Below the pieces are notes generated by a model. The model did not search any database and was not told the DNA's origin. It was given only the letters and a program-made list of their open reading frames with translations. From assembly GCA_021404525.1 (NCBI GenBank), contig JAAWWE010000001.1, positions 248,001 through 312,000 of the forward strand: a stretch of 64,000 nucleotides of DNA, written 5' to 3'. This DNA comes from Rhodobiaceae bacterium (GTDB lineage: Bacteria > Pseudomonadota > Alphaproteobacteria > Parvibaculales > Parvibaculaceae). Positions 52,607 through 55,852 of this stretch are shown here, one piece after another. The translations under genes and the position numbers were made by a program. Within the stretch, counting starts at the first letter, position 1; each line of letters begins with the position of its first letter.

Positions 52607-53953
52607 ATGACTGCTTGTCTAAGATTTGCCCCGAGCCCTACCGGCACCATTCATGTCGGCAATGTTCGCACGGCCTTGTTCAATTGGCTGCTGGCAAAGA
52701 AAGAGGGCGGGACCTTTATTCTCCGTCTGGACGATACAGATACAGAGCGCTCAACCCAGGAATATGCCGACAAGATCATTGCGGATATGGCCTGGCTTGG
52801 CCTCACCCATGACAAGACCTTTCGTCAGTCGGACCGGTTCGACCGCTATGCAGAGACAGTTGAGAAGCTGAAAGCAGACGGACGGCTCTACCCCTGTTAC
52901 GAAACACCCGACGAACTTGACCGCAAACGCAAACGTCAGCTCGGCCGAAAGCTTCCGCCAGTATACGACCGCGCGGCACTCAACCTGACAGATGAAGAGA
53001 AGGCCGCCTTCGAAGCAGAAGGTCGCCAGCCCCATTGGCGCTTCAAGCTCGATCCGGAAGTCGTGGAATTCGATGACCTCTTTTTAGGACAGGTCAAGGT
53101 CGACACGAAGAGCCTGTCTGACCCGATCCTCATCCGTGGCGACGGTTCTTATCTCTATACGCTGCCAAGTGTTGTGGATGACATTGATATGGAGATTACC
53201 CATATCGTGCGCGGTGAAGATCACGTGACCAATACCGGCGCACAGGTGCAGGTGTTTCGGGCGCTGGGTGCAGAGCCACCCATCTTCGGTCATCATTCAC
53301 TGTTGCTGAATGAAGAGGGCCAGCCGCTTTCCAAGCGCCTGCGCGGCGAATACTCAATCGAAGCGCTGCGCGACGCAGGCTTTGAGCCTATGGCCGTGAC
53401 GTCATTCCTTGCGAAGCTGGGCACGTCGGATGCGGCAATTGCCAGGTCCGACCTTAAGATCTTGGCAGATGAGTTTGAGCCAGGCGAGGTAGGGCGCTCT
53501 GGCCACCGATTTGATAAGCGGGAACTGGAGCGCGTCAACGCAGCGCTCATGCACATGACGCCATTCGAAACGGTATCTGACCGATTGGCAGAGCGCGGCA
53601 TTGAGGGCGGCGCAGAGTTTTGGGACGCCGTGCGCCCCAACCTCACCCTTTTTGATGGGGTGGCCGAGTGGTGGCACGTGGCTCATGGGCCTGTAGAGCC
53701 CGTCATCGAAGGGGACGATGCAGACTTTATCGCGGCAGCAGCGGCTGCATTGCCCGCGGAGCCCTGGGATGAGACCACCTGGAAGTCCTGGACCGGTGCG
53801 CTGAAAGAAGAAACCGGGCGCAAGGGCAAGGGCCTCTTCATGCCGCTGCGCCTGGCGCTCACGGGTCTTCGGCATGGACCTGAGCTTGCAAACCTGCTAC
53901 CTCTTCTAGGGCGCGAGCGGGCATTGGCTCGTTTGGGCGGGCAAAAAGCATAA
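52607..53953 (+). CDS. gltX: glutamate--tRNA ligase
   Basis: 448-residue class Ib synthetase. RFAPSPTGTIHVGNVRTALFN carries the HIGH-type motif as HVGN (16-19), RLDDTDTERS is the glutamate-adenylate region, and the KMSKS loop reads PLSKR. The length matches the shorter alphaproteobacterial GluRS2, which in related species can mischarge tRNA-Gln for the transamidation route or act on tRNA-Glu; which applies here is not decidable. It is the second gene after nadE with AAGGAAG as ribosome site. Confidence 0.94.
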   Translation: MTACLRFAPSPTGTIHVGNVRTALFNWLLAKKEGGTFILRLDDTDTERSTQEYADKIIADMAWLGLTHDKTFRQSDRFDRYAETVEKLKADGRLYPCYETPDELDRKRKRQLGRKLPPVYDRAALNLTDEEKAAFEAEGRQPHWRFKLDPEVVEFDDLFLGQVKVDTKSLSDPILIRGDGSYLYTLPSVVDDIDMEITHIVRGEDHVTNTGAQVQVFRALGAEPPIFGHHSLLLNEEGQPLSKRLRGEYSIEALRDAGFEPMAVTSFLAKLGTSDAAIARSDLKILADEFEPGEVGRSGHRFDKRELERVNAALMHMTPFETVSDRLAERGIEGGAEFWDAVRPNLTLFDGVAEWWHVAHGPVEPVIEGDDADFIAAAAAALPAEPWDETTWKSWTGALKEETGRKGKGLFMPLRLALTGLRHGPELANLLPLLGRERALARLGGQKA

Positions 53954-53983
53954 GATTGAAGCAATAACGGCGAGACCGATCCG

Positions 53984-54034
53984 ATGAACCTCATCAACGC
54001 GATCATTATTAAGGGTCTGATTATCAGCGGCTAA
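53984..54034 (+). CDS. isoleucine-rich leader peptide of the cimA attenuator
   Basis: A 16-codon frame, MNLINAIIIKGLIISG then TAA, lies about 175 bases upstream of citramalate synthase. Six of sixteen codons are Ile, in runs of three and two, plus two Leu. Such a leader is the hallmark of ribosome-mediated attenuation of branched-chain amino acid operons (ilv/leu leaders in enterobacteria); here it would measure Ile-tRNA charging for the isoleucine-specific citramalate route. The ribosome site is weak (GGCGAGA about 10 bases upstream). Expression is inferred. Confidence 0.62.
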   Translation: MNLINAIIIKGLIISG

Positions 54035-54150
54035 TAGCATTGGCCGCCGCCGTTCGAGCACGTTTTCTTCAGAAATTCAGACGTTAAGAACCGGCCGGTG
54101 GCGACACAGGGAACACGGTTGGGCGGACATGTGTCCGTTGAGCATTTTCA
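54027..54150 (+). promoter_or_regulatory. attenuator region between leader peptide and cimA
   Basis: Two mutually exclusive pairings can be drawn: GCGGCT (54027-54032) with GGCCGC (54042-54047), covering the leader stop, or CGCCGCCG (54045-54052) with CGGTGGCG (54096-54103). Further on, CGGAC (54124-54128) pairs with GTCCG (54133-54137), followed after a few bases by TTTT at 54145. Which stem is terminator and which antiterminator cannot be decided by eye. Confidence 0.45.
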
Positions 54151-54208
54151 GCAAAAGTGTGTAGCGGTTTTGCGGTGCGAAAATGCGATCAACAAATGGA
54201 CAAGTAAA

Positions 54209-55852
54209 ATGAGCAAAGAACGGCTTTACCTCTTCGACACGACATTGCGCGATGGCGCGCAGACGCAGGGCGTGGATTTCTCTGTCGAGGACAAGCGGCT
54301 CATTGCGGGCTTGCTCGACAAGCTCGGTCTCGACTATGTGGAAGGCGGCTATCCCGGGGCCAATCCAACGGACACAGATTTCTTCTCCGCCGATCCAGGT
54401 CTGAAGCACGCCACATTTACCGCCTTTGGCATGACCAAACGGGCAGGGCGGTCTGCGGATAACGACCCGGGTCTTGCCGCCATTCTCGACAGTTCAGCCT
54501 CAGCTGTGTGTCTCGTGGCAAAAAGCTGGGACTTCCATGTAGATGTCGCCCTCGGCATCACCAATGATGAGAATCTGGAGACCATCACCGACAGCGTACG
54601 AGCCATCATCGCCCGTGGCCGTGAAGCTATGATCGATTGCGAACATTTTTTTGATGGCTACAAGGCAAATCCGGACTATGCGCGGGCTTGCGTAAAAGCT
54701 GCGCTCGATGAAGGTGCGCGCTGGGCGATCCTCTGTGACACCAATGGGGGCACGCTCCCCCATGAGGTTCAGCAGATCGTGACCGATCTCACGAAGGACT
54801 TCCCCGGCGACCGCCTCGGTATTCATTGTCACAATGATACAGAGAACGCAGTTGCCAATACGCTGGCAGCGGTTCGCGCGGGCGTGCGCCAGATCCAGGG
54901 CACGCTCAATGGCCTTGGCGAGCGCTGTGGCAATGCCAACATGGTCTCACTTATTCCGACACTTCTGCTGAAGCCAGAATATGCTGACCGCTTTGAGATC
55001 GGTGTTACGGAAGGTCAGCTCAAAGACATCACTCATGTGTCGCGCACGCTGGACGAATTGCTGAACCGTGCGCCGGATCGCTATGCGCCTTATGTGGGCG
55101 ACAGCGCTTTCGCATCCAAAGCGGGCATCCACGTTTCGGCCATTTTGAAAAACCCATCGACCTATGAGCATGTAGAACCGGAGAGCGTTGGCAATAAGCG
55201 CCATATCTCTGTGTCCGATCAGTCAGGGCGCTCTAATGTATTGGCGCAGTTTGAAGCGGCGGGCATCGACGTTGACAGCAAGGACCCGCGCATCAACCGT
55301 CTGTTGGACGAAGTGAAAGAGAGGGAATATCTGGGCTATTCCTACGACGGCGCGGAAGCCTCATTCCAGCTGCTGGCGCGCCGCATGCTGGGGCAGGTGC
55401 CGGAATATTTCACGGTGAATTCTTTCCGTGTCCTCGTAGAACGGCGATACAACGCCTTGGGAGAGTTGGTGACTGTGTCAGAAGCAACCGCCAAGGTAGT
55501 TGTGGATGGAGAGCAGTTTATTTCTGTGGGCGAGGGGAACGGCCCGATCAATGCTCTCGACGAAGCACTCCGCAAGGATCTCGGCAAGTACCAGTCCTAT
55601 ATCGACGAAATCCGTCTGGTGGACTTTAAGGTTCGTATCCTCACCGGCGGCACGGAAGCGGTCACCCGTGTATTGATCGAAAGCGCGGACGCAGACGGCA
55701 ACCGGTGGTTCACGGTCGGTGTCTCCCCTAACATTGTGGATGCGTCTTTCCAGGCCCTAACCGACAGCATTACCTACAAGCTCTTGCGGGATGGCGCTCC
55801 GGCTCCCCTGTCTTCAGACAGTCAGGCAACGCTGAAGCAGCCGGGAAGCTGA
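54209..55852 (+). CDS. cimA: citramalate synthase
   Basis: Condenses pyruvate and acetyl-CoA to citramalate, the threonine-independent route to isoleucine. The 547-residue protein has LFDTTLRDGAQTQGVDFS (8-25), DYVEGGYPGANPTD, the metal site HCHNDTENAVANT and GTLNGLGERCGNANM; the YPGANP stretch separates CimA from homocitrate and isopropylmalate synthases. The C-terminal 150 residues form the dimeric LeuA-type regulatory domain for feedback by isoleucine. The ATG at 54209 begins the family sequence; its Shine-Dalgarno is poor. Upstream lies an Ile-rich leader. Confidence 0.94.
   Translation: MSKERLYLFDTTLRDGAQTQGVDFSVEDKRLIAGLLDKLGLDYVEGGYPGANPTDTDFFSADPGLKHATFTAFGMTKRAGRSADNDPGLAAILDSSASAVCLVAKSWDFHVDVALGITNDENLETITDSVRAIIARGREAMIDCEHFFDGYKANPDYARACVKAALDEGARWAILCDTNGGTLPHEVQQIVTDLTKDFPGDRLGIHCHNDTENAVANTLAAVRAGVRQIQGTLNGLGERCGNANMVSLIPTLLLKPEYADRFEIGVTEGQLKDITHVSRTLDELLNRAPDRYAPYVGDSAFASKAGIHVSAILKNPSTYEHVEPESVGNKRHISVSDQSGRSNVLAQFEAAGIDVDSKDPRINRLLDEVKEREYLGYSYDGAEASFQLLARRMLGQVPEYFTVNSFRVLVERRYNALGELVTVSEATAKVVVDGEQFISVGEGNGPINALDEALRKDLGKYQSYIDEIRLVDFKVRILTGGTEAVTRVLIESADADGNRWFTVGVSPNIVDASFQALTDSITYKLLRDGAPAPLSSDSQATLKQPGS

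Follow-up and report, generated by a model that had tools for sequence, protein, structure and literature searches.

The isoleucine-rich leader and its surroundings

In the window (the whole 64-kb stretch of DNA analysed here), a short open reading frame lies on the forward strand between gltX2, which ends at 53953, and cimA, which runs from its ATG at 54209 to 55852 and is the presumed target of control. The frame starts with an ATG at 53984 and closes with a TAA that ends at 54034, and its product, MNLINAIIIKGLIISG, has six isoleucines in sixteen codons. The sequence-only reading of this DNA had described such a frame in a 255-base gap before a citramalate synthase gene. All three points were borne out: the codon count and the length of the gap are as given, and the product of the downstream gene matches TIGR00977 with an E-value of 5.2e-187, above the cut-off. 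The citramalate route yields an isoleucine precursor without threonine. Rfam 15 gave no match at the gathering threshold in the window and none up to an E-value of 5 in 53900-54300, and a scan of 53600-54400 for sigma-70 promoters and intrinsic terminators returned no site of either kind.

Conservation of the leader in the family

A search of the window's family gave 40 genomes, and a search of the order gave the same 40. The 5′ end of cimA is present in 39 of these, the other genome (G026) having no cimA match at an E-value of 1e-100, and an in-frame isoleucine-rich leader precedes cimA in all 39. One script found 37 of the leaders, while those of L091 and L092 were added by reading the sequence and by a wider rule. 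Since near relatives are included (38 of the stretches are distinct), the 39 loci do not amount to 39 independent events. An RNA model built from the leader region also locates the element upstream of cimA in 39 of the 40 family genomes. Further weak matches were a second piece in G016 and one in G029; in G033, elements of equal score on contigs C33 and C187 are probably an assembly duplicate.

Pooled in their longest ATG form, the family leaders comprise 640 codons, 179 of them for isoleucine and none for cysteine, with three to seven isoleucines in each leader. Counting back from the stop, 37 of the 39 leaders have isoleucine at -4, 37 have it at -3 and 38 have it at -9. The leaders are 14-19 residues long in their shortest ATG form, the ATG is in frame every time, and insertions and deletions are multiples of whole codons; the peptides differ and the isoleucine pairs stay. 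L091 and L092, which belong to one genus, lack the -4/-3 pair and have isoleucine at -5 and at -9 to -11 (MALATRAIIIKGMITWGS). A Shine-Dalgarno-like 4-mer precedes just 23 of the 39 leaders. Conservation of the frame and of its isoleucine codons in relatives had been proposed in the sequence-only reading as a check on its own claim, which the claim has passed as far as sequence can tell.

The enrichment was assessed for all 20 amino acids by comparing the clustering of each in the best small upstream ORF with dinucleotide shuffles (p ≤ 0.03), a test that gives no amino acid preference. Isoleucine went beyond the shuffles in 33 of the 39 family regions upstream of cimA, followed by proline in 3 of 39. 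In the same regions, the antisense strand gave isoleucine in 2 of 39, and the highest count there was that of asparagine (7 of 39), whose codon AAT complements ATT. Non-family cimA genes without cysS directly in front gave isoleucine in 1 of 33 cases (39 loci, of which 6 with less than 90 bases were left out). No leader was seen before ilvI of the window's own genome. Two hallmarks of leader-peptide cis-regulators are thus found at this locus, namely a short ORF rich in codons for the end product before the gene and the retention of these codons in relatives, and MNLINAIIIKGLIISG is confirmed as a genuine, conserved Ile-rich ORF, beyond chance.

A promoter-like pair inside gltX2

Two hexamers within gltX2 resemble a promoter on the forward strand: a -35-like TGGACC at 53875-53880, in the 3′ end of the gene, and a -10-like TACCTC at 53898-53903. 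All family loci but one have the pattern TGGACC-N17-TACC[TG]C (38 of 39; L102 ends at a contig end), and the 64-kb window contains it a single time, both strands counted. The standard sigma-70 scan does not find the pair. At the -10-like hexamer, the second leucine of the gltX2 motif LLP is encoded by CTA or TTA at all 38 loci that reach this far (L102 being cut off), compared with 1.9% of 934 other leucine codons in the same gene parts. Outside the family, the motif was located in 25 alphaproteobacterial gltX2 genes, of which 11 have both TGGACC and CTA/TTA and 14 have neither (Fisher one-sided 2.2e-7, uncorrected for relatedness).

The transcript is therefore likely to start near 53910, upstream of the leader. 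A start downstream of 54034 had been named as an observation that would count against the leader; the sequence points instead to the predicted promoter and to about 53910. Several of the 11 carriers outside the family (for example L157 and L182) have no space for a leader, which suggests that the promoter is older than the leader or independent of it. Distant alphaproteobacteria share the promoter-like pair in the gltX2 coding sequence, whether or not they have a leader.

Two mutually exclusive RNA pairings

Within the putative leader RNA we distinguished five regions on the forward strand. Region A (AACGGCG, 53966-53972) complements the 3′ half of region C in the minimum free energy (MFE) fold. 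Region B (GCGGCTAAT, 54027-54035) lies over the last leader codons and the stop, and in the window it forms a 9-bp hairpin with 54039-54047. Region C (GCCGCCGCCGTT, 54043-54054) is common to both pairings described below, region D (AACCGGCCGGTGGC, 54089-54102) is its long-range partner, and region E (54113-54122), from the MFE fold, is a possible partner of D with no U-tract after it. The order from 5′ to 3′ is B (GCGGC, in the last leader codons), C (GCCGCCGCC) and, about 35 bases further, D (CGGCCGGTGGC).

The pairings were evaluated in an alignment of 32 distinct rows, from which rows identical over the stretch, L085 (with an insertion within C) and L098 (whose B:C loop carries an inserted repeat) were left out. 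Of the 251 cells for B:C, 90.0% are paired, as are 94.4% of the 376 cells for C:D, and neither covariation score was matched by any of 500 shuffles. Related rows can give high covariation scores without structure, and as a control against this the partner was slid by one to three columns, upon which the pairing fell to 19-73% for B:C and to 15-74% for C:D. Pairs changed on both sides number three for B:C and three for C:D, a count that 27 and 302 of 500 shuffles reached, respectively. RNAalifold by itself predicted C:D and not B:C. Since C is common to both, B:C and C:D exclude one another, so that alternative pairings with one common strand, as in leader-peptide cis-regulators, are seen here as well. 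Comparison across the family shows the conserved frame with its isoleucine codons and the two exclusive pairings.

Thermodynamic folding was carried out on 38 loci, L102 being left out with its upstream DNA cut at a contig end. Compared with shuffles of the downstream DNA, C:D is the stronger at p ≤ 0.05 in 23 of these loci, with p = 0.08 for the window locus, while A:C exceeds shuffles at that level in 8 of 38 only and is accordingly put forward with more reserve. In ribosome-free folding, 27 of 38 loci favour pairing of C with A or B over pairing with D, and 11 do not. When a ribosome was placed over the last isoleucine pair, C:D with at least five pairs formed in 33 of 38 loci and failed to form in 5; this computation, run without a shuffled control, removes the RNA as far as the second base after the end of the leader, so that A and B are absent by construction and it bears only on whether C finds D. 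A stall computed at the first isoleucine cluster gave a mixed outcome, with C:B in 16 and C:D in 25 of the 38 loci. For the direction of the switch we follow the analogy with known attenuators.

In L098 (the L007 locus), the inserted repeat occupies the B-C loop, some 5-110 bases downstream of the leader stop, and both arms are intact. By eye the insert is similar to the REP-like repeat of the window, and it amounts to a natural test of the stem.

The terminator question

On average, hairpins between D and E do not clearly exceed shuffles in strength (mean z -0.4), and a hairpin-plus-U site was found at p ≤ 0.1 in just 11 of the 39 family loci. The best such site of the window (p = 0.1) lies past E, within a repeat, whereas L097, L108, L111, L112, L113 and L119 reach p = 0.03, the floor for 30 shuffles. 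As there is no consistent intrinsic terminator, that is, no regular U-run terminator hairpin between leader and gene, we do not file the leader as a member of the classical trp type, although it may still work like such an attenuator.

The repeat in question is a dispersed, palindromic, REP-like element on the forward strand at 54140-54196, located after the leader RNA and ahead of cimA. Matches to it occur in 17 plasmid records from Shinella, Rhizobium, Agrobacterium and their kin, and it has seven matches in its own genome, counting the query copy. The sister locus L084 has it, and L085, L086 and L099 do not.

cysS and its own leader in the family

In the window's own genome, cysS lies on contig C17 and cimA on contig C33. 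cysS is not the immediate upstream neighbour of cimA in any of the 39 family loci, in which cimA is preceded by the leader and, if the sequence reaches that far, by gltX2. cysS was matched in 36 of the 40 genomes, and among 30 family cysS loci examined, 24 have a Cys-rich leader, defined as an ATG ORF with at least two cysteines that ends 40-115 bases before cysS. These 24 leaders hold 93 cysteines and 9 isoleucines in 513 codons, and the same rule was satisfied by 47 of 600 shuffles. By a looser rule, a Cys-rich ORF occurs in 4 of the 39 family cimA regions. The unbiased test gave cysteine in 8, threonine in 7 and lysine in 5 of 29 split cysS loci, far weaker than isoleucine for cimA. Several family cysS loci have in common a leader start MTCR.C or a stretch TTCCRTS. 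The cysteine side is the weaker part of the case, and draws on a Cys-seeking score and on the recurring peptides, not on the unbiased test. The leader of the own-genome cysS (L200, genome G000, contig C17) reads MTCRCCRKNTTESPA and lies 151-103 bases before the gene.

Joined cysS-cimA loci outside the family

With stricter filters, the RNA model was also run on 385 sampled genomes of the class, where it matched only five family members and two genomes of one other genus. The two non-family matches (E-values 0.001 and 0.007) have the gene order gltX2-leader-cysS-cimA, with the leaders MARTPRNCRLIITG and MARICNQCCLIITG. To these we added 99 distinct regions before cimA, hand-chosen for family spread among the matches listed (202 of the 385 genomes match). 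The 99 consist of 60 and 39 regions and, one of the two model matches being among the 60 already, 100 loci were classed. In this sample of non-family loci, cysS stands directly before cimA in 61 (one of which, L238, is cut at a contig end, so that the region used as its upstream was the wrong one). It was not found there in 39, two of which (L167 and L225) are too short to tell; in ten of the 39, cysS lies further upstream on the same strand, 470-2878 bases from cimA.

An Ile-rich ORF within 500 bases before a non-family cimA was found in 1 of 62 loci (L040), a chance-like rate, L029 and L067 having less than 500 bases. This result had suggested that the leader is a feature of the family only, an idea that we rejected: the count is misleading, because where cysS directly precedes cimA a leader would sit before cysS.

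A score that rewards cysteine and isoleucine together (100 shuffles, p ≤ 0.02) was applied to loci L133-L194. It was passed by 18 of the 41 joined loci in this set and, among the 20 others, by L159 and L161, where the region tested precedes a cysS at a distance of 530 and 613 bases from cimA. Sixteen of the 18 have at least one cysteine and two isoleucine codons, examples of such dual leaders at joined loci being MKTAATIWCICCTIIIS, MTIAATTACICCTIIIS, MTRCQNQICQICIGCICCQSIICG, MMSARIAQIIITAGNTCCCRSKICA and MSNAHTIFICPIICR. One of the sixteen, that of L144, has a GTG start and is weak. The other two passing leaders, of L166 and L173, are Cys-rich with no and one isoleucine, respectively. L133, whose leader is MARTPRNCRLIITG, fails (p = 0.18). 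As this score is tilted towards cysteine and isoleucine, more weight falls on the unbiased test, which gave isoleucine in 10 and cysteine in 3 of 49 joined loci (12 of the 61, with less than 90 bases, were left out), and on the antisense strand neither isoleucine nor cysteine in any, methionine in 5 of 49 and serine in 4 of 49. With antisense methionine reaching 5 of 49, isoleucine is above background at the joined loci and cysteine is not.

Many joined loci are without a leader, often because gltX2 is too near. A C:D-like pairing exceeded shuffles at p ≤ 0.05 in 3 of 20 joined-locus leaders (L136, L140 and L155), so that the exact RNA architecture of the family is not established for them. 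At L163 (MTLTLNIRLIERISIAIATRC) and L262 (MKFARNIGSIERITVATRC), Ile-rich leaders with one cysteine at the extreme end stand before a joined cysS-cimA pair.

A model for the control of cimA and its alternatives

The ORF, in our judgement, probably encodes a leader peptide that belongs to a cis-regulator of cimA, ribosome-mediated and responsive to Ile-tRNA; attenuation by Ile-tRNA, as the sequence-only reading had proposed, is supported as a reading, short of proof. Transcription would start near 53910, from the promoter within gltX2. With ample charged Ile-tRNA, the ribosome would complete the leader and leave, C would pair with B (and A), D would be free and expression would be low. With charged Ile-tRNA scarce, it would stall at the last isoleucine pair (-4/-3) and cover B, upon which C:D would form and cimA would be on. 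We guess that D or D:E halts expression through a weak or Rho-dependent terminator.

A form of the same explanation keeps the leader and the isoleucine sensing and places the output in Rho-dependent termination or in translation and mRNA decay. Its probability overlaps with that of the parent explanation, and we consider it a serious possibility at somewhat less than an even chance. U-tracts are absent or poor in most members, and Rho has been proposed for the terminator-less Cys leaders of Actinobacteria (PMC1262725). L097, L118, L121 and the window accommodate long insertions between D and cimA, a finding that speaks against direct occlusion of the cimA ribosome site and is in keeping with upstream termination. 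Against this form of the explanation, the six loci named above do have hairpin-plus-U sites at the floor value.

The remaining alternatives dispense with the sensing of isoleucine codons. That the 5′ UTR of cimA holds a conserved structured RNA or a protein-binding site, with the ORF incidental, would explain why the nucleotides ATTATT-AGCGGCTGA are almost fixed, beyond the needs of the peptide. We think it unlikely, as the ORF varies by whole codons around its constant isoleucine pairs, the isoleucine and cysteine content of the leaders tracks the downstream genes, and Rfam has no match even at the permissive E-value given above. The C-terminal residues are also the best conserved part of the peptide, and related ends (ITG and ITA before the stop) occur outside the family, as would be expected if a peptide ending in GLIISG arrested the ribosome on a metabolite and not through Ile-tRNA. 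Position -2 varies (mostly S, R or T), however, as do -5 (L, I or V) and, widely, -7, and elsewhere runs of cysteine join or replace isoleucine, as codon sensing predicts, which leaves arrest by the peptide itself slightly less credible still. Small ORFs occur in any 255-base gap, yet a chance ORF is very improbable here, given the 33 of 39 loci beyond shuffles and the frame and codons conserved in 39 of 39.

If the Ile-tRNA-responsive leader operates as proposed, it would give the citramalate route an Ile-specific control, linked to the published cysS leaders of Rhodobacterales. In the window's family, isoleucine limitation would be predicted to raise cimA and cysteine limitation to raise cysS; in a joined operon with a dual leader, limitation for isoleucine or cysteine alone would raise both genes.

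Relation to known leaders

The enterobacterial leaders for branched-chain amino acids bear the names ilvL and ivbL. The leaders of ilvGMEDA and ilvBN, as summarised in PMC6123439, have 32 residues with 15 and 11 branched-chain amino acids, and act by attenuation. Our leader likewise ties codons for branched-chain amino acids to a gene for their synthesis; it differs in having 16 residues, in standing before cimA and in lacking a clear terminator.

The closest published relative is uORFC-8-2 (Brewer et al. 2021). It is a tandem-Cys leader before cysS in Rhodobacterales, described there as likely ribosome-mediated attenuation with a U run at its 3′ end; the main text of that paper contains no occurrence of 'cimA' (PMC8632094). 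The leaders of joined cysS-cimA loci are, like uORFC-8-2, ORFs before an alphaproteobacterial cysS. L172 and L173 resemble it in their Cys run, and also share their last bases with family leaders (see below); that these two loci are members of uORFC-8-2 or Rhodobacterales is a guess. The window leader, unlike uORFC-8-2, has no cysteine codon, stands before cimA and has no U-tract terminator. We considered membership in uORFC-8-2 and rejected it, since tandem cysteine codons directly before cysS are not what the family has: no cysteine occurs in its 640 codons, and the gene is cimA.

The leaders of actinobacterial cys operons, with runs of cysteine codons and, like ours, no clear terminator, for which Rho was suggested in the paper cited above, belong to another phylum and to other genes and another amino acid. 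In the open-access literature, as distinct from subscription papers and supplements, no report of a leader with isoleucine codons before cimA was recognised. The new side is thus, within that literature, the cimA/Ile leader, Cys leaders on cysS of Rhodobacterales having been published as uORFC-8-2. The cysS-cimA operon with its Cys and Ile leaders forms a wider context, beyond what the sequence-only reading had considered.

Ancestry of the leader

Across the loci compared, leader codons appear to follow operon content. On the simplest reading, the family Ile leader descends from a Cys+Ile leader of a cysS-cimA operon: cysS would have moved away, cimA would have retained an Ile-only leader, and cysS would have its Cys-rich one. 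We lean, by a modest margin, towards a more general proposal, in which an old alphaproteobacterial cysS-cimA leader reads both Cys-tRNA and Ile-tRNA and a split of the operon sends the Ile codons with cimA and the Cys codons with cysS, so that codon content would be a record of operon history. Split and joined operons would then form a natural experiment on which codons remain after the departure of a gene.

In a cimA tree of 28 rows, rooted at the midpoint, the eight family rows form one clade (100/99). A larger clade (83/90), whose internal order the tree leaves unresolved, holds the family, seven families labelled dual and one leaderless row; as for the labels, those of the two f5 rows were based on short leaders, in one case with cysS 530 bases from cimA, and one f126 row is unlabelled. 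The 12-base leader end ATTACCGGCTGA is identical in L103, L114 and L115 of the family and in L172 and L173 outside it, and L133, L134, L184 and L261 are one or two bases off.
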